Shown here: one piece after another, positions 2,978 to 14,583 of the stretch
How the letters are laid out: the number at the start of each line of letters is the position of its first letter
Numbering within the stretch: the stretch's first letter is position 1
Source: a virus
DNA length: 26,023 nucleotides
Strand: one strand, 5' to 3'
IMG/VR virus record: IMGVR_UViG_3300004770_000098
Location: 1-26,023 of that record
The notes under the pieces: generated by a model
What the model saw: only the letters and a program-made list of their open reading frames with translations
Told to the model about the DNA's origin: nothing
Database searches by the model: none
Made by a program: the position numbers and the translations under genes

Positions 2978-4075
2978 TTACAGCCCTGCCAACCGCTTAA
3001 GATCAATGACATTGCTTTCGCTTTCGTCTTCTTGCTCTTGGACACGGGCAGATTTATCGCCAGTTGCTTCAGTTAATGTTTCAGTAATTACTGGTTTAGT
3101 AGCTTTTACTGAACGATTCTCTAATACCGCTGGTAGATACTTTTCAAAAGCAGATTTCAAACGTGTAGTTTGAACGCTTTCAAGTAAATTACGCATTACT
3201 TCTGCTTTTTCTTCATTTAGAGGACTAAGCAATTCTTCCATTGTACGAGTACGTACATTAGATTCTTTTAGGATGCGTACTTCACGTTCCTTGGATTCGA
3301 CTAAGACAGTTGCCTTCTTAGCGAATTTGATGGCTTCAGCAATTTTTTGATCTTTCTGAGCAATTACATCATGCAGTTTACGAACTTCTGCTTTCTCATT
3401 TAAATGAGTAGCACCAAATTCTGCTGAGTATGCTTCAAAAATACGACGACCAAAATTGTTCTCGCGAGCAACTTGGATGTCTTCTTTCAATTGGCTGAGT
3501 TCAGCCTTGAGATGCTTGGATACAGCTTGTGACATTTTTTCAGCAGATTCTTTTACGAAACGGCTCTTTAATGATTCTAATTGACCACGTGCATTTTGAA
3601 CCAGGCGTACCTTAGTTTCAACTACATCACGCTTGTCTTCTTGGAATTCACGAATTTCACGAGCTAACGCATGAACGATAAAGCCTTCTAATTTCTCTAG
3701 GCCTTCGTTATGTGTTTTGCGGTCTTTACGCAATTCGCCAATTTCTTCCGCTAATTTAGATACCATAAAGTTGTTAAACTTGTTGCTATCTTCTTTCATT
3801 TTGCGTTGGAACTTGACACGATCTTCAGCTAATTGAGCTTTTTCAGCTTTTAACTGTTGGACTTCTGCGATAAGACTTTCTGATACCATGCGATCTAGGG
3901 CTTCCACCATCACTGATTTGTCATGCTCGTAGCGTTGTGCGAACTCTTCGCGGAGTTCCGCACGGGCTTGTTCTTTGGCTTCAACAATCTTAGCTTCCCA
4001 AGCCTCGTTGATTTCTGCTTTCGCTTCCTCTGTAACAAACTCGCTATCTAGTAACGGTTTCAATGCGTCTAGCAT
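2978..4075 (-). CDS. 22: Prohead scaffold protein, gp22-like, 365 aa
   Basis: Internal scaffold on which the prohead shell assembles; in T4 it is degraded by gp21 during maturation. The protein is almost entirely charged helix, rich in Lys/Glu/Ala, with long heptad patterns from residue ~15 to ~280 that indicate coiled coil. The N-terminus MLDALKPLLDSEFVTEEAKA and the C-terminal ESNVIDLKRLAGL resemble other T4-like gp22 ends. It begins one base after the protease gene, with AAGGAAAA as ribosome site in the end of that gene, and ends 19 bases before gp23. It is longer than T4 gp22 (269 aa). Position and composition, more than motifs, carry the call. Confidence 0.9.
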   Translation of the reverse strand: MLDALKPLLDSEFVTEEAKAEINEAWEAKIVEAKEQARAELREEFAQRYEHDKSVMVEALDRMVSESLIAEVQQLKAEKAQLAEDRVKFQRKMKEDSNKFNNFMVSKLAEEIGELRKDRKTHNEGLEKLEGFIVHALAREIREFQEDKRDVVETKVRLVQNARGQLESLKSRFVKESAEKMSQAVSKHLKAELSQLKEDIQVARENNFGRRIFEAYSAEFGATHLNEKAEVRKLHDVIAQKDQKIAEAIKFAKKATVLVESKEREVRILKESNVRTRTMEELLSPLNEEKAEVMRNLLESVQTTRLKSAFEKYLPAVLENRSVKATKPVITETLTEATGDKSARVQEQEDESESNVIDLKRLAGL

Positions 4076-7851: not shown

Positions 7852-10212
7852 TTAGCTTTGTAGTTGTAATATCTTGTTAGAAGTACGCACGTGACTTTGC
7901 ATACTGTTTATTATTTTATCTAATTTCTGTACTTTCATTGCTAACATTTCAATTACTTCTGTAGATTCTTCATCTTCATTTGTTTCTACTTGAATTGTTT
8001 TACCGTCACGTAACGGAACTACAGCTTCTACCCCATGTAACAAAGCCATAAATCCACTAGTTGGCCCACTTAATATATTACCCGATGCACCTTTAGGAAT
8101 TTCTCCTGTGTTTAATGTTGCAACTGATGAAGGTAAATCTTTTCCGCCCCATTTATTTGTCGAAACCGCTTCTTCAGCTTTTGCTACTTTTGATCCCATC
8201 AATGCGTAAACATCTTTTAAGCTTCTTGGAGTATCTTTATCATAAAATATAGAATGATTTGCAGCAGCAGGTGCAGGAAAGAAGTTGGCTGCAATAGCAT
8301 CGGGATTAGCATTCATAAGATTTAAAAATCTAGCAGCATTTCCTGCACCTAAGAAATGTGCCATATATAAATCAGTAGACGTCGCTGCCTTACCTGTGGT
8401 TGTTTCTAATATCTTTTTGTTGTTTTCTGTAAAATATTTCATTACTTCCGCAGATTTTACAGGATCGTATCTATCTTGGAGTGTATAATTTTTACCCATT
8501 TGTTTTACAGTATCGATCCACGTTTTATCTATAAACTGAAACATGCCAGTTGCACTACTAGTTCCTGCACGAGCATTAGTATTTCCCCCAGATTCTAACA
8601 ATGCAGTAGTTTTTAAATACTGGGTCATGTTAGCAGGACTACTCGATGGCGTCATTAAAGGTGCAGTACTTGTACTGAATCCTAAACTTGGACTAGGTGC
8701 TGTATAACTAGTTGGAGTTGCACCAAATGTTGACTTAGCTTTATCTAATAATGTTGTACCTCCTCCAGCCTGTCCTTGTTTTCCTAATAATTCAGCAGGC
8801 AAGCCAACTACTTGATCAATAACATCAGTAGTTGCACCAAAGGCTTTTAATACAGGTCCGATGCCTATATTAATAAAAGCTTCAGCTGATTGTGTGGCAT
8901 TACGTTGTGCTTGAGTAATATCAGTCATATTTTTAGTTGACTGATCTACTTCTCCTTTCTGTTGTAATACTTGATCTTTACGAGCTTTGTCTTGTAGTTT
9001 AATTCTATCACCAACTGCTCTACCAGCTTGACGTTGAATAGCTGGGAAATCACTGATTGCTTTGTTTGCAATACTTACCCTTGCTCTTTCTTCATAATCT
9101 TTGCTAGTTTGTACAGCATCTTCATCCATAAGATTCATGATAGAATTAGCATCTTTAACACCATTTCTCAATGACGCAAACGCTTTAGGATATGCTATAC
9201 TAAATGCTTGAAACCCAGGGTCATTAATTGAACCTGCTAATACTTTAGTAAGATTGTCAACTATCTTTTCACTTTCTGTAGAACCCAGTGTATATGAAAT
9301 TAAAGTTCGATTTAATTCTAATTCTTTTCTAGCATCTTCTGCACCTTCTGCTCCAGCATCTGCTATTCTTTGCAATTTTGCATTGCGAGCAGCATATTGT
9401 TCAGTAGACAAAGCATGTTCCATCGCTTTATTTTGTGCCTCTGCACTGAGCCCAGTTATCTTTGTCAATCTATCTTGTTGTTCGATAAAATCTTTAGCAC
9501 CTTCTGTTTGTTCCTGCAGGGTTTTTATTTTAATCGACCCGCTATTTTTTTGGAATTTGATATAGTTGAGAGTACTATCATTAATATCATTAACTGTCAT
9601 TCCCATGTTAAGAAATTCAGTTCTTATGCCCGAAGATGTTATAGCCTCGGAAATTTTAACAAACTCACTAGCACCCTGTGCCGCTGTACCACCATATGTA
9701 GCCAATAGTTGAGCATTGTTTTTCATTAGCTCAGTGAATTGACTCATTTCCTTTAAAGTATATCCTGCAGATTGGAGATTTTTAAAAGTATCATCCATAC
9801 CTAATGTCAGTCCATTTTTGCTGACATCTTGATAAATTTTAAATAATGCATCACCTTGTTTTTGTGTTGCAATAACGTAGTCAGCTCCTGCTTTTGCAGC
9901 ACCTGATAATGCTGGCCCAATAACAGGAATCCAACCTAGTAAATCACCTAATGCATCACCTAATGATTTAGTTAAATCATTATAAACACTGAGTCCTTCC
10001 TCGCCTTCGATAAATTTATCAGTCAAACCTAGTAAAGAACTACTTAAATTATTAAAACTGGCTTTTAATGTATCAGTATATTCTTTTTGTCCTTTACTAG
10101 CATCAGCCATTCTTTTGGCCAAATCTCTAGATACAGGTATATTCTTATCTATTGCATTATTATATTCGTCAATAATGGCTGATATTTCAGAGGGTGAGTA
10201 TTGATTTGCCAT
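7852..10212 (-). CDS. Tape-measure-like protein with SLT/lysozyme-like domain, 786 aa
   Basis: The second of two tandem paralogues. Residues 1-~480 are helical, with a hydrophobic Gly/Ala segment at ~90-110 (LGWIPVIGPALSGAAKAGAD). They align with the upstream gene: YDV/LS(K/R)NGL(T/A)LGMD, AGYTLKE, NMGMTV versus NMGKTV. Residues ~530-660 form an SLT-like glycan hydrolase: LLESGGNTNARAG with likely catalytic Glu near 540, GMFQFIDKTW, and MAHFLGAGNAARFL. The C-terminus has SGPTSGFMALLHGVEAVVPL, a motif typical of tape-measure C-termini, then a coiled coil. I infer a tail-interior protein that sets tube length and/or cuts peptidoglycan during entry. A stand-alone virion transglycosylase is the alternative. 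AAGGAT lies upstream of the ATG. Confidence 0.75.
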   Translation of the reverse strand: MANQYSPSEISAIIDEYNNAIDKNIPVSRDLAKRMADASKGQKEYTDTLKASFNNLSSSLLGLTDKFIEGEEGLSVYNDLTKSLGDALGDLLGWIPVIGPALSGAAKAGADYVIATQKQGDALFKIYQDVSKNGLTLGMDDTFKNLQSAGYTLKEMSQFTELMKNNAQLLATYGGTAAQGASEFVKISEAITSSGIRTEFLNMGMTVNDINDSTLNYIKFQKNSGSIKIKTLQEQTEGAKDFIEQQDRLTKITGLSAEAQNKAMEHALSTEQYAARNAKLQRIADAGAEGAEDARKELELNRTLISYTLGSTESEKIVDNLTKVLAGSINDPGFQAFSIAYPKAFASLRNGVKDANSIMNLMDEDAVQTSKDYEERARVSIANKAISDFPAIQRQAGRAVGDRIKLQDKARKDQVLQQKGEVDQSTKNMTDITQAQRNATQSAEAFINIGIGPVLKAFGATTDVIDQVVGLPAELLGKQGQAGGGTTLLDKAKSTFGATPTSYTAPSPSLGFSTSTAPLMTPSSSPANMTQYLKTTALLESGGNTNARAGTSSATGMFQFIDKTWIDTVKQMGKNYTLQDRYDPVKSAEVMKYFTENNKKILETTTGKAATSTDLYMAHFLGAGNAARFLNLMNANPDAIAANFFPAPAAANHSIFYDKDTPRSLKDVYALMGSKVAKAEEAVSTNKWGGKDLPSSVATLNTGEIPKGASGNILSGPTSGFMALLHGVEAVVPLRDGKTIQVETNEDEESTEVIEMLAMKVQKLDKIINSMQSHVRTSNKILQLQS

Positions 10213-10221
10213 TTATTTGAC

Positions 10222-12513
10222 TTATCCTTGTTTTTGCAACATACGAGACGCAATATCATTTTGTTTTTGCATGACATTTAATATTGAATCTAATCTATCT
10301 AATTCTTCACTTAGTATTTTAACCTGCTCTCGAGATGCATTTCCGGAATTATTTTTTATTTTTGCAGGTATAGATCTTCCGTCAGGCAGTGGGACTTTAA
10401 CATTCGTGTCTGACAAAGCTGTATGATATCCTCCAGTAGGTCCACTTAGTACCCCGCCATTAGCCGCTGATGGCATTTGCAAGTGCCCTGGATCATTCGC
10501 TACGCCGCTAAATCCATATTTGGCAGCTAATCCTGAAGATATCAAAGCATTATAATCACTTATATTAAGATCTAATGCTCTACCTTCTACATGAGAATCT
10601 TTACCTCCTGGTGGTACTGGTTTAGTAATTCTGCCATAAGGCGTTCCATCTACAGTATCTTTACCGGGTCCACCGCCGCCGTTTTTCCAAGCAGTGTATA
10701 ATCGTTCTTGATCAGCTATTTCTCTTTTTGCTGAATTTATAGTAACTGGTTTTCCATATTCTTTAACCATGGCAGTAAACGACTGCTTTACCTTTTCACT
10801 CATTGCATCAAAATTTGCTCTGTTGCCGGTATTGCCACCTTGGAATTTTATCAAACCATTTGCATCTGGATTTTGCGCAGCAGTTTCTGCTTCTATACGA
10901 CTTTTAGCCGCACGATCTGATATAGAACTGAGTCCGATTAAATTTCCTGCTTTTTCAATTGATCTCGGAATACTAGATATTACTTTTTCCGTAGTTGACA
11001 TTTTGTTCCAGTTTTTATCGTCCTGGGCATTGAGTTTGGCTTTTTCTTTTTCGTTCCTTACATTTTTAGTCTTTCCTGCTATCTCTCCAGCGACTCCAGC
11101 TGCATCTTCAACAGTTTCGGCTAGCGCAGCTAATCCAGTTGTTACCATTGGTATGGCTTGATGAAATATATATTCTAAGGATTGAGTTGAATTGCGCTGT
11201 GCTTGACGTAGCTTAACCATATCGGCTGTTGCTGCATCTGCACCTGACATTTGTAATGTTATTTGTCCATCTGCGTCTCGAATAGATTTAGTATAATCTT
11301 GTGTGCTTAATCCAGCTAATTTTAAATTTTCAGAAAAATTACCAAATATCTTATTGTAAACACCATATGTAGCTAAACTATTTTGTGTACGAGTACTTTG
11401 TTCAGCATCTTTATGATATTGATTAAGGATAAGACCAAAATCTGTTGAACCAGAATCTATTTTATTAGCTGTTGCAGAAAAAGTTTGTTGAAATTTTCTA
11501 TAGTCTTCAGTGTTAGAAGCACCTGCCAAATAAGCTGTCATTTGTTTTACAGCTTCAGGTCCTGCTCTTTGCGCATCTGCTAGTAACAATGCATTACGTT
11601 GTAATTTTTGTTTAGCAGCGTCTCCTCGTGCAGTACCTGCAAATTCCGCAGCTTCTCTTTCTAATTTGCCTTTTTCAGCAGCATAATATTCAACGTTTTG
11701 TGCTGCTTCGAGCGTTTTAGTTTGTGCATCTGCACTAATACCAGTTAACTTGGTTATTCTATCTTGTTCAATCATGAATTCAGCGGCACTTTGTGCTACT
11801 GTTGCATCATCAGCTGATAAAGTTCTGCCACTTATTTGTTGTAATTTTATATAATTTGCTATACTTGCATTGATTTCAGGAACAGTTTTGCCCATATTCA
11901 TGAACTGTGTTTCTAGCCCTGAATTAGCAATATTTTTCGATATACTGGCAAATTTATTAGCACCATCTTGGGCTGTACCTGCAATTCCCGCCATTACTTG
12001 CGAGTTTTCCTTCATTAGGGCACCGTAATCCCCAATTTCCTTCAGTGTATAACCGGCTTTTTGTAAGTTTGTAAAGGCACTGTCCATGCCTAATGCCAAC
12101 CCATTACGACTTAAATCTTGATATAATTTATATTCTTTGTCTGCTTGTTTAGCTACAGCGTTTTCAAACTTAGCTGCACCGTTGACTAAACCTTCTAATA
12201 ATTGACCAACATATGGAATTTTTGATAGAAAAACTCCCAATGTTTTAGCACCAGCATTGACAGTATCATTGTATACCGCAGCACCAGATTCGCCATCGAC
12301 TATACTTTTAATTAGCCCTGCGCCTGCTGTTTTTAATGCAGCTTGGCTTGCTTTTAAATTGGCAGTATAACCTCTGATGCCTACAGAAGCGTCTTTAAAT
12401 TCATCTGCAAGCCCCTGAGATATGGGAATACCCGTTTTTAGTGATCGTTCAACAGCTTCGTTGTATTCAGATACAATAGCCTGAATTTCTTCCCGTGTCA
12501 TTTGTTCTTGCAT
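10222..12513 (-). CDS. Tape-measure-like protein with M15-type peptidase domain, 763 aa
   Basis: Paralogue of the downstream 786-aa gene over the first ~480 residues (for example YQDLSRNGLALGMDSAFTNL and NMGKTVPEIN). In place of the SLT domain, residues ~565-680 form a D-Ala-D-Ala carboxypeptidase/VanY-like M15 domain: INSAKREIADQERLY, then SHVEGRALDL with zinc ligands near His641 and Asp648, and DPGHLQM with His near 677. The tail again has LSGPTGGYHTALS and VPLPDGRSIPAK, followed by a coiled coil. It probably sits in the tail tube and cleaves peptide cross-links on injection. A TATAAATA box ends only six bases before ATG 12513, so either a leaderless start or the in-frame Met5 at 12501 may be used. 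Confidence 0.75.
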   Translation of the reverse strand: MQEQMTREEIQAIVSEYNEAVERSLKTGIPISQGLADEFKDASVGIRGYTANLKASQAALKTAGAGLIKSIVDGESGAAVYNDTVNAGAKTLGVFLSKIPYVGQLLEGLVNGAAKFENAVAKQADKEYKLYQDLSRNGLALGMDSAFTNLQKAGYTLKEIGDYGALMKENSQVMAGIAGTAQDGANKFASISKNIANSGLETQFMNMGKTVPEINASIANYIKLQQISGRTLSADDATVAQSAAEFMIEQDRITKLTGISADAQTKTLEAAQNVEYYAAEKGKLEREAAEFAGTARGDAAKQKLQRNALLLADAQRAGPEAVKQMTAYLAGASNTEDYRKFQQTFSATANKIDSGSTDFGLILNQYHKDAEQSTRTQNSLATYGVYNKIFGNFSENLKLAGLSTQDYTKSIRDADGQITLQMSGADAATADMVKLRQAQRNSTQSLEYIFHQAIPMVTTGLAALAETVEDAAGVAGEIAGKTKNVRNEKEKAKLNAQDDKNWNKMSTTEKVISSIPRSIEKAGNLIGLSSISDRAAKSRIEAETAAQNPDANGLIKFQGGNTGNRANFDAMSEKVKQSFTAMVKEYGKPVTINSAKREIADQERLYTAWKNGGGGPGKDTVDGTPYGRITKPVPPGGKDSHVEGRALDLNISDYNALISSGLAAKYGFSGVANDPGHLQMPSAANGGVLSGPTGGYHTALSDTNVKVPLPDGRSIPAKIKNNSGNASREQVKILSEELDRLDSILNVMQKQNDIASRMLQKQG

Positions 12514-12539: not shown

Positions 12540-13379
12540 ATGAATCCACTGAATCCGCTTAGTCATTATTTTAGACAGCCTTCAATTTATATTAAATTAC
12601 CAAGTCAAGGAAAATATTATCCGCCAGGGGCACTGGAGTTACCTGAAAACGGCGAGGCGGCTGTCTTGCCCATGACTGCTATTGATGAAATTACATATCG
12701 TACTCCTGATGCATTGTTTAGCGGACAAGCAGTTATCGATGTGATTCAAAGTTGCATTCCTGCTATTAAAAATGCTTGGGACATACCATCTATTGATATT
12801 GATACTATTTTAGTAGCAATACGTATTGCTAGTTATGGACATGAAATGAATTTTAATACTACTTGTCCAGCTTGTGCTAATTCCGATGAATATGGGATTG
12901 ATTTACGTACAGTATTGGGACAAATCAAAGCGCCTGATTATTCACATCCAATCAAACAAGGCGATATTGAAATTTATTTTAAACCTATGACTTACAAAAA
13001 TCTATCAGATAATAATAAAATTCAATTCGATGAACAAAGACTATTTCAATCAATTCCTACTGATGGTACTGCTGATGCCACGCATCTTAGTGCTATGTCA
13101 GAAGCACTTAAAAAAATGACTAAGATAACTGTTACTGCATTAAGTCAAAGTATTTTAACTATCAAGACCCCTACTGCAATTGTAACAGAGCCAGAATATA
13201 TTTCAGAATTTATGGAAAACTGTGATGGTACACTGTTTAATCGTATTCAAAATTATGTAGTTGAACATAAATCACAAGCAGAAATGAAACCTGTTAAAAT
13301 CAAATGTGCAGGTTGTTCTAACGAATATGAACAAAAAATTACTCTGGATATGACAAGTTTTTTCGAGCGCGCCTCCTAA
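12540..13379 (+). CDS. 26: Baseplate hub / tail assembly protein, gp26-like, 279 aa
   Basis: Matches the T4 gp26-type baseplate protein family: HYFRQPSIYIKLPSQGKYYP, then ELPENGEAAVLPMTAIDEI, TPDALFSGQAVIDVIQSCIPAIKN and IDTILVAIRIASYG. Two Cys pairs, CPAC (109-112) and CAGC (256-259), can form a zinc ribbon. T4 gp26 has 208 aa. AAGGA lies six bases before the ATG. It is transcribed divergently from the tape-measure-like genes. Its last codons contain T TTT TTC, where a -1 shift would fuse it to the following 58-aa frame. That arrangement is the hallmark of tail assembly chaperones (lambda G/GT), so a chaperone role toward the tape measure is inferred. No clear plus-strand promoter is visible upstream. 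Confidence 0.88.
   Translation: MNPLNPLSHYFRQPSIYIKLPSQGKYYPPGALELPENGEAAVLPMTAIDEITYRTPDALFSGQAVIDVIQSCIPAIKNAWDIPSIDIDTILVAIRIASYGHEMNFNTTCPACANSDEYGIDLRTVLGQIKAPDYSHPIKQGDIEIYFKPMTYKNLSDNNKIQFDEQRLFQSIPTDGTADATHLSAMSEALKKMTKITVTALSQSILTIKTPTAIVTEPEYISEFMENCDGTLFNRIQNYVVEHKSQAEMKPVKIKCAGCSNEYEQKITLDMTSFFERAS
13358..13364 (+). promoter_or_regulatory. Probable -1 programmed ribosomal frameshift site T TTT TTC
   Basis: In the gp26 frame the codons are AGT TTT TTC GAG, so the heptamer fits X XXY YYZ exactly. Sliding back one base enters the frame CGA GCG CGC CTC CTA ACC, which is open through to the 58-aa ORF and avoids the gp26 stop at 13377. A GC-rich GAGCGCGCC follows at once, and ACCTT (13379-13383)/AAGGT (13392-13396) can form a small stem. 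The fusion would be 351 aa (275 + 76). Confidence 0.7.
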
Positions 13380-13417
13380 CCTTAGACTCTGAAGGTGTTG
13401 CCAAATATATTGACAAC

Positions 13418-13594
13418 ATGGATAAAGAGATAAACGATATTAGGAAGGAGGCATTAAGGATGGCTTGGTATATGCGTGGTGGTATTCCTTACGATCAAGT
13501 TTTACAGCTCAGTGTTTCTGAAAGAAAGCTAATTAGTGATATTGTTAATGACAATATGGAAACGACTAAGAAAACAGGATTGAATTTTTTCTAA
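13418..13594 (+). CDS. Tail assembly chaperone 'T'-like domain, 58 aa or fused to gp26 by frameshift
   Basis: The ORF starts with ATG at 13418 (MDKEINDIRKEALRMAWYMRG) and ends KKTGLNFF, with LSVSERKLISDIV between. The pattern WYMRGG...LS..ER..I...N.E.TKKTG..FF is one I recall from small ORFs after gp26 in T4-like phages and from second frames of tail chaperone genes. No Shine-Dalgarno sequence precedes the ATG; the nearest AAGG is over 20 bases away. The same frame is open upstream to the gp26 slippery site at 13358-13364, adding RARLLTLDSEGVAKYIDN. Expression as the C-terminal domain of a -1 frameshift fusion (13364-13594) is therefore more likely than independent initiation. Terminator hairpins follow at 13642-13690. 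Confidence 0.75.
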   Translation: MDKEINDIRKEALRMAWYMRGGIPYDQVLQLSVSERKLISDIVNDNMETTKKTGLNFF

Positions 13595-13641
13595 AGAAGA
13601 GATCATTCAAAGAATAGTTTATATTTCTTTTTGATTTAACA

Positions 13642-13690
13642 GATTAGCTACGCTAATCCAAGACTCGCATACTGCTCGTCTTATTTTTTT
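13642..13690 (+). terminator. Tandem hairpins with T-run ending the gp26 unit
   Basis: First GATTAGC-TAC-GCTAATC (7 bp), then AAGAC-TC-GCA-TAC-TGC-TC-GTCTT (a symmetrical stem with a 2x2 internal loop) followed by ATTTTTTTATTTT. The second is a standard rho-independent terminator for the plus-strand transcript. Confidence 0.75.
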
Positions 13691-13734
13691 ATTTTGAAGT
13701 AGTTGCTTTTAGATACTATTCATCTAGAACTAAT

Positions 13735-13770
13735 GTCATAATTCACCGTAAGCACGGTGAAAAAAATGAC
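13735..13770. other. Long inverted repeat, no adjacent T-run
   Basis: TTCACCGT-AAGC-ACGGTGAA gives eight perfect base pairs, extended after a small bulge by GTCAT/ATGAC. On the plus strand it is followed by As, and on the minus strand it has no trailing T-run, so it is not a standard terminator in either direction. It could be an RNA processing or stability structure at the end of two converging transcripts. Confidence 0.5.
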
Positions 13771-14154
13771 CTCTTCATCTGAGTCCGCAGTCATTTATTA
13801 TAAAGAGATTGTGTTTGCACACACGGAGGCGGTTGACCTGTACCCCCTACTCTAGCTTCACATATCAACGGAACCCTAGTAACCCGATAATAAATCCAAG
13901 TCCTATAAGCATGGGTCGTATCTTTTTCACGTTGCCCAAACCATTTGTTGCCTTAAGTTGGCTTTTGCCTTTGACACCCGAGTAGGCTTGCGCCTCTTCT
14001 ATCCGAATTGGGTTTTTCACCAATCCTCAACGGGGATCGAGCTGCCTCGATCAAACACTGTCAGTATAGATGCGCCTTCAGACTTTCACTGAGTTCTGAC
14101 AATAGATTCGGGCTTCCCCTAGCTTTGTCTGTTTGATGCCTTACTAATTGTTTA
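13771..14154. other. Unexplained convergent intergenic stretch, possible structured RNA
   Basis: About 380 bases between the converging gp26 and gp46/GIY-YIG units with no recognisable gene, and visibly richer in G+C than the flanks. On the minus strand there are several small hairpins: GATCGAG-GCAG-CTCGATC, AGGC-GCAA-GCCT (GNRA loop), GGC-AAAA-GCC, and TTGTCAG pairing with CTGACAG about 30 bases later. Stop-free stretches of 50-75 codons exist on both strands, but without good starts or ribosome sites; plus 13911-13985 (MGRIFFTLPKPFVALSW...) and a short hydrophobic minus peptide are the best. I could not match it to tRNA, tmRNA, RNase P or a group I/II intron. Confidence 0.4.
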
Positions 14155-14583
14155 TTAAAATTTGTTTTTTATGTGACTACCATGTATACGGCATACTATT
14201 TGCCCGTTATAATAATCGTCACTTTCTAATACACGATGTTTAAATTGTTCACGAGCTTCTACATAACTACATTCAGCCTTGGACCTACAATAGTATAATA
14301 TTTCTCTCGTAAAATTTTCGATGCCTAACTGTTCGATGTCTTTGTTTAATTCAATGCTGCTGCCTGTGTATTGTTGCCAGTCTGAGTCTATTTTGCTTTT
14401 AATCTTTTTACGTTTTTTGGTGCCGTTCTTAAGTTTCACTGTTTTATATGTTGTTTTACTGAATTTTGATAATTTTTTTCCAATATATTTTCTGCCAGAT
14501 ACGTTATTGGTGATACAATAAACGAAGCCGACACAATCTTCTGGTAGTATTTCAACTTGAGTGTTTTCAAAAAGCCATGACAT
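14155..14583 (-). CDS. GIY-YIG family endonuclease, 142 aa
   Basis: Small nuclease with the GIY-YIG core: GFVYCITNNVSGRKYIGKK (GFVY for GIY, KYIG for YIG, residues ~19-37). After a Lys-rich insertion come SDWQQYTGSSIELN, REILYYC and the catalytic Glu context CSYVEAREQF, ending near DYYNGQIVCRIHGSH. This compact form, with no separate DNA-binding domain, is frequent in T4-like phages as a free-standing gene of unclear role (homing or DNA processing). It starts 44 bases after the gp46 stop in the same direction, so it is probably cotranscribed with gp47 and gp46. No intron or split gene is seen around it. Confidence 0.85.
   Translation of the reverse strand: MSWLFENTQVEILPEDCVGFVYCITNNVSGRKYIGKKLSKFSKTTYKTVKLKNGTKKRKKIKSKIDSDWQQYTGSSIELNKDIEQLGIENFTREILYYCRSKAECSYVEAREQFKHRVLESDDYYNGQIVCRIHGSHIKNKF

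Follow-up and report, generated by a model that had tools for sequence, protein, structure and literature searches.

A T4-like viral gp26 gene very likely encodes a short and a long tail-assembly chaperone by programmed –1 frameshifting, with a candidate long-range RNA stem behind the slip site

The window (the whole stretch of DNA analysed, 26,023 nucleotides) is a 26 kb viral fragment with T4-like structural genes. Its gp26-type gene carries a slippery heptamer close to its stop, and we consider it very likely, from sequence comparison and by analogy with lambda G/GT, that the locus undergoes programmed –1 frameshifting to make a short and a long form of a tail-assembly chaperone. Four features define the locus.

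12540..13379, + strand: gp26-type gene, 279 aa, the putative short form (TAC-N, G-like); matches PF12322 T4_baseplate (E 4.8e-16) and PHROG 150 'baseplate hub' (E 3.4e-18)
13358..13364, + strand: slippery heptamer T TTT TTC in the gp26 frame, read directly; conserved in the related loci examined except Ackermannviridae 3M and the T4/Octan two-gene type
13364..13594, + strand: –1 frame extension, a putative T-like C-terminal domain of 76 aa plus stop (13592–13594), from translation and comparison with relatives
13418..13594, + strand: 58-aa ORF inside the extension; its ATG at 13418 lacks a ribosome site

In a profile search, the window gp26 passed the curated cut-off of PF12322 (59.5 bits vs 24.5). 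Read directly, the 3′ end of the gene in the 0 frame is AGT TTT TTC GAG CGC GCC TCC TAA, with the stop at 13377–13379, so that a heptamer of the X XXY YYZ form lies in the 0 frame and the –1 frame is open past the 0-frame stop. The sequence-only reading that drew attention to this locus had the heptamer, its frame and its coordinates right; its distance of five codons to the stop holds only if the slipped TTC is counted, as four codons (GAG CGC GCC TCC) actually intervene. Its open –1 frame through the 58-aa ORF also stands, with 76 codons up to the stop. A –1 slip at the heptamer enters FRARLLTLDSEGVAKYIDNMDKEI...GLNFF and ends at 13594; the translation after the slip reads FF-RARLLTLDSEGVAKYIDNMDKEI..., and the predicted fusion measures 275+76=351 aa. 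This T TTT TTC differs from the slip site of lambda G/GT. The claim that the downstream ATG has no ribosome site is true of ATG 13418, which is preceded by GCCAAATATATTGACAAC and no Shine-Dalgarno; what had been passed over is a second ATG of this frame, at 13460, preceded at 8 nt by AAGGAGG. Initiation at ATG 13460 could yield a 44-aa T-domain fragment in the window phage.

The slip signal is real and far beyond chance. Slip site and open –1 frame were present in 28/28 IMG/VR relatives down to 38% identity (one of which ends right after the heptamer), in 80/80 cyanophage-like loci, in 53/53 loci among the matches listed for a DNA motif outside the gene, and in 22/22 isolates outside Ackermannviridae and the T4/Octan type (two with T TTT TTT)—samples that partly overlap and whose related sequences are not independent, drawn from deeply diverged lineages. 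The isolates span jumbo phages, KVP40-likes, cyanophages and PhiW-14, and include Atu_ph07, Phosso, BF, RaK2, PA5oct, Munch, 121Q, CBB, GAP32, SCTP-2, XacN1, a Vibrio jumbo phage, S-RIM8, two KVP40-likes, Melnitz-1 and ZPAH1. Because it was an unrelated DNA motif next to the gene that led to the 53 loci, the conservation is not an effect of protein-based ascertainment.

Elsewhere in 37 gp26 genes, in-frame X XXY YYZ heptamers occupy 36 of 10,153 other codon positions. The codon preceding the slip site ends in T in 37/37 cases, whatever the amino acid, as against about half at such positions elsewhere; TTT is invariably the first Phe codon of the slip site. The 0-frame tail past the slip site differs in length, between 0 and 11 codons, while the register of slip site and –1 frame is constant, and the –1 product has a conserved FFR..L at the junction, upstream of any ATG. 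The comparisons that had been proposed to probe the frameshift all came out in its favour: besides the conserved heptamer, they showed a –1 frame that stays open from the slip site to the first ATG and codes for FFR..L there, and frozen synonymous positions at the slip site. In the Ackermannviridae phage 3M (L050, about 3150–3370), the –1 frame is open and encodes a T-like sequence (FEISDMMPWHLDLMTEML), with GGTTTTC replacing the heptamer; one reading we offer is a different slip site or some other mechanism in this phage.

T4 is without such a slip site and has two PF12322 genes instead, gp26 (208 aa) and gp51 (249 aa). In HHalign, the T4 gp51 profile aligned end to end with a virtual cyano/KVP40-type fusion, straight through the junction (255 columns, prob 99.8, E 2e-26), and the cyano/KVP40-type fusions aligned by profile with the jumbo-type fusions (E 1.6e-25). 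Compared directly, gp51 and the jumbo-type fusions aligned poorly (prob 65). The jumbo-type T domain on its own was unrecognised by profile against gp51 or the cyano T domains (prob 8.5 and 0.1, respectively), so that it is the full-length alignment that links it to them. The gp51 C-terminus (1.2e-23) and the cyano and KVP frameshift domains (9e-30 and 6e-21) all match PHROG 634 'baseplate hub assembly catalyst'; the window T domain matched no family in Pfam or PHROGs. As in the T4-like TAC-N/TAC-NC scheme, the predicted long form consists of the short form plus a C-terminal domain and is collinear with T4 gp51 via the cyano/KVP fusions. From this collinearity and the PHROG 634 matches, T4 gp26 is the counterpart of the short form and gp51 that of the long form, and T4 thus encodes the two as paralogous genes. 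The window shares with T4 gp26/gp51 the family PF12322 and the same short/long logic; T4 has two paralogous genes and no frameshifting, whereas the window clade has one gene, the frameshift and a probable long-range stem.

Frameshifting also explains why cyanophage and vibriophage 'gp51' lack the first ~200 residues while their C-terminus matches T4 gp51, as observed by Sullivan et al. (2010, PMC3037559). The long-obscure 'hub assembly catalyst' gp51 is best understood as this frameshift product in fused form, and, T4's own relatives apart, most of the T4-like radiation has retained one slip site. In many records the extension is entered as a hypothetical protein of its own; many phage gene models therefore need correcting.

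Behind the slip site, two complementary stretches could form a stimulatory stem; RNA structures of this kind often accompany programmed –1 frameshifting but are not a requirement for it.

13371..13377, + strand: 5′ arm GCCTCCT of the proposed stem, starting 6 nt after the heptamer; pairs with AGGAGGC
13446..13452, + strand: 3′ arm AGGAGGC of the proposed stem, separated from the 5′ arm by 68 nt; Shine-Dalgarno-like with respect to ATG 13460

Among 14 close relatives, codon choice is frozen at few of the conserved residues in the extension, most clearly at CGC CTC right behind the slip site (14/14 each) and at GAG GCG, codons 29–30 (14/14 and 12/14); CGCCTC is complementary to GAGGCG. In the wider clade (n=64), 34 sequences have a run of at least 6 pairs in the window register and 18 others have the arm 21 nt closer, none having both. 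Either register is thus paired in 52/64 sequences, against a mean of 20.7 (max 28) in 200 synonymous shuffles of the downstream codons with the 5′ arm kept, in a test designed post hoc; 12/64 sequences fit neither. Some relatives with a different 5′ arm, GGCTTTTGACT, have a matching 3′ arm, AGTCAAAA. APC mutual information lent little support, most stem pairs not being ranked highly, and pair counting in the 14 close relatives gave weak covariation because half of the pairs never vary. The AGGAGG-like arm is not simply a ribosome site for ATG 13460, since its position moves between relatives, and dual coding with the 0-frame tail could contribute to the conservation of the 5′ arm.

Taken from sequence comparison, a long-range stem 5–6 nt after the slip site, with its 3′ arm at one of two mutually exclusive places, is probable; it is not proven, because the test was post hoc, 12 sequences do not fit and mutual information is weak. 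The GC-rich stretch that had been pointed out downstream of the heptamer is real and conserved, and makes up the 5′ arm of this proposed long-range stem, not part of a local hairpin: the local folding of the window is unremarkable (z –0.46), as is RNA folding after the slip site in its clade. We give roughly even chances to the fuller proposal that a long-range stem (or pseudoknot) drives the gp26 frameshift of this clade, its 5′ arm being fixed and its 3′ arm having been relocated in evolution between two exclusive sites 21 nt apart; it would be a new stimulator for T4-like chaperones. In the literature accessible to us (Vladimirov et al. 2022 via citing papers), we found no earlier description of a relocating stem behind a slip site. 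Such a stem would offer a natural sequence set for dissecting bacterial –1 frameshift stimulators.

In other lineages, stems 4–8 nt after the slip site beat synonymous shuffles in 28/110 sequences at p<0.05, which is above expectation for sequences that are related and not independent. In one cyanophage subgroup, a single position of a hairpin is occupied by three different Watson-Crick pairs. In the KVP40-like VH1_2019 (L051, 3271–3346), the region just after the slip site folds far better than its shuffles (z –5.16).

From the slip site, the open and conserved –1 frame, the synonymous constraint, the stem complementarity and the gp51/fusion collinearity seen in these comparisons, we propose the following mechanism. 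At T_TTT_TTC both tRNA-Phe would re-pair on UUU, a minority of ribosomes leaving the gp26 frame just before its stop to read 76 more codons, and in the window phage clade ribosomes are probably paused by the long-range stem that lies 5–6 nt past the slip site. One gene would then give two chaperones, mostly the short one (gp26, 279 aa) and to a lesser extent the long one (about 351 aa), with the gp26 domain in common and a helical C-terminal domain added in the long form. On the lambda model, the tape measure protein would be coated by the short part, with tail-tube subunits recruited by the extra domain. Lambda itself produces gpG and gpGT through a low-level –1 shift, and these bring tape measure and tube protein together (PMC5009743). 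The analogy with G/GT, put forward in the sequence-only reading, gains support from T4 gp51, an assembly factor absent from the virion that is collinear with the virtual fusion.

Structure prediction with AlphaFold2 rendered the extension all-helical (mean pLDDT 81) and the gp26 domain mixed (mean pLDDT 82). With VIA-align, the gp26 model matched the HK97 chaperone 2ob9_A over 101/107 residues (Z 6.0, rmsd 4.6), a Z that unrelated matches also reach, and the Foldseek comparison with a known chaperone was weak (E 5.2). Neither Foldseek nor VIA-align gave a confident fold match for the models, with no chaperone among the matches listed for the T model, and searching the PDB sequences with both profiles returned no match. 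The diversity of a profile built from all gp26 sequences precluded a pattern scan.

Divergently from gp26 lie two large genes.

7852..10212, – strand: 786-aa tape-measure-like protein with an SLT domain (E 5e-7); weak match to RaK2 ORF088 (E 5e-5)
10222..12513, – strand: 763-aa tape-measure-like protein, divergent neighbour of gp26; paralogue of the 7852..10212 gene (30% over 807 columns), with a putative role only

Their size, their hydrolase domains and the weak match to RaK2 ORF088, which its depositors called tape-measure-like, suggest that both are tape-measure-like. The window resembles lambda G/GT (Levin 1993; Xu 2004) in that a –1 slip near the end of the chaperone gene would give a minor C-terminally extended product; the window tape-measure-like genes are on the – strand, opposite gp26, whereas those of lambda follow directly downstream, in an arrangement typical of such pairs but not obligatory, and the likeness drawn here is one of mechanism. 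Given the divergent tape-measure-like genes, we therefore class the locus as working like G/GT and not as a member of the lambda family. A large co-oriented gene lies downstream of the locus in S-RIM8, VH1_2019 and phi-ST2. The tandem paralogues at 7852–12513 (– strand) differ in their C-terminal wall-hydrolase-like domains, one being an SLT transglycosylase and the other a weak M15/VanY or endolysin-like match.

Neither mechanism nor role is new for T4-like phages; both are largely prior knowledge, as follows from the Octan record and from what two papers cite from Vladimirov, Gautam and Davidson 2022. According to both (PMC10885494, PMC12846349), that work identified T4-like tail assembly chaperone genes; the PRFect authors refer to it for phages in which a short gene is accompanied by a fused long one (PMC10885494), and the paper on phage Adele does so for the poly-T slip sites of T4-like TAC-N genes (PMC12846349). 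A chaperone role for a supposed hub protein, presented as novel in the sequence-only reading, had thus been assigned to gp26 before: in PMC3004832, in Vladimirov et al. 2022 as cited, and in the record of phage Octan, which already names gp26 and gp51 tape measure chaperones. A 2016 review had the G-T shift widely conserved 'except T4' (PMC5009743). The TAC frameshift of Vandenendeviridae/Andersonviridae (PMC12846349), compared here by description, likewise has a T-run slip site at the TAC-N end and a –1 frame open family-wide, with the motif GTTTTT and in another phage group than that of the window. New here are the survey of the wide extent and the candidate stimulator stem.

Homopolymer runs are typical sites of indel errors, and a sequencing or assembly error or a decaying gene could mimic a frameshift. 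The same 6-T run and frame relation recur, however, in independent assemblies and in finished isolate genomes, together with synonymous constraint; this conservation led us to reject the sequencing-error or pseudogene reading, whose chance we hold to be negligible. The downstream ORF might instead encode a small protein of its own, translated through internal initiation or by stop-start coupling at ATG 13418 or ATG 13460, with the T run incidental. The AAGGAGG 8 nt before ATG 13460, the annotation of such a gene in several isolates and the stop-start overlaps in 121Q, PhiW-14 and the KVP40-likes speak for this, and separate protein and fusion could coexist. Yet most loci have no ATG near the junction while the conserved FFR..L is coded upstream of any ATG, and the AGGAGG-like element, shifted by 21 nt in 18/64 relatives, has not been maintained as the ribosome site of ATG 13460. 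Nor would this reading explain the fixed T TTT TTC or the single fused T4 gp51, and we regard a separate protein with an incidental T run as highly improbable.

Somewhat less remote, albeit still unlikely, is that frameshifting is real and yields structural proteins of the hub or baseplate instead of tape-measure chaperones. The traditional annotation of gp26 is baseplate hub, and genetic work, as cited in PMC3004832, put gp26 and gp28 in the hub. The same source nevertheless lists gp26 and gp51 as hub assembly chaperones, gp51 being required yet absent from the particle, and a short/long pair from one gene is a known chaperone pattern (PMC5009743). A frameshifted pair of tail-assembly chaperones hence remains our preferred reading of the locus.

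Downstream of the locus, the window contains a non-coding, hairpin-rich region (13640–14150) with 72–93% DNA identity in most relatives, which in L025 and L020 lies about 1.4 kb further downstream. At least 120 stretches of IMG/VR DNA contain its core motif; the region had no Rfam match up to E 1 and contains no tRNA or tmRNA. RNAalifold favours the – strand (covariation term –2.75 vs +0.42), and the region is a candidate for an uncatalogued structured RNA linked to gp26 and a SegE-like gene. A SegE-type GIY-YIG endonuclease gene lies at 14155–14583 (– strand; PF19835, E 2.6e-33), and such a gene is present in 62/78 loci with the neighbouring RNA-like motif, among the matches listed. Finally, an ORF at 838–1734 (– strand) with HHIIPES and repeated NP.YG motifs looks, by eye, HNH homing endonuclease-like.
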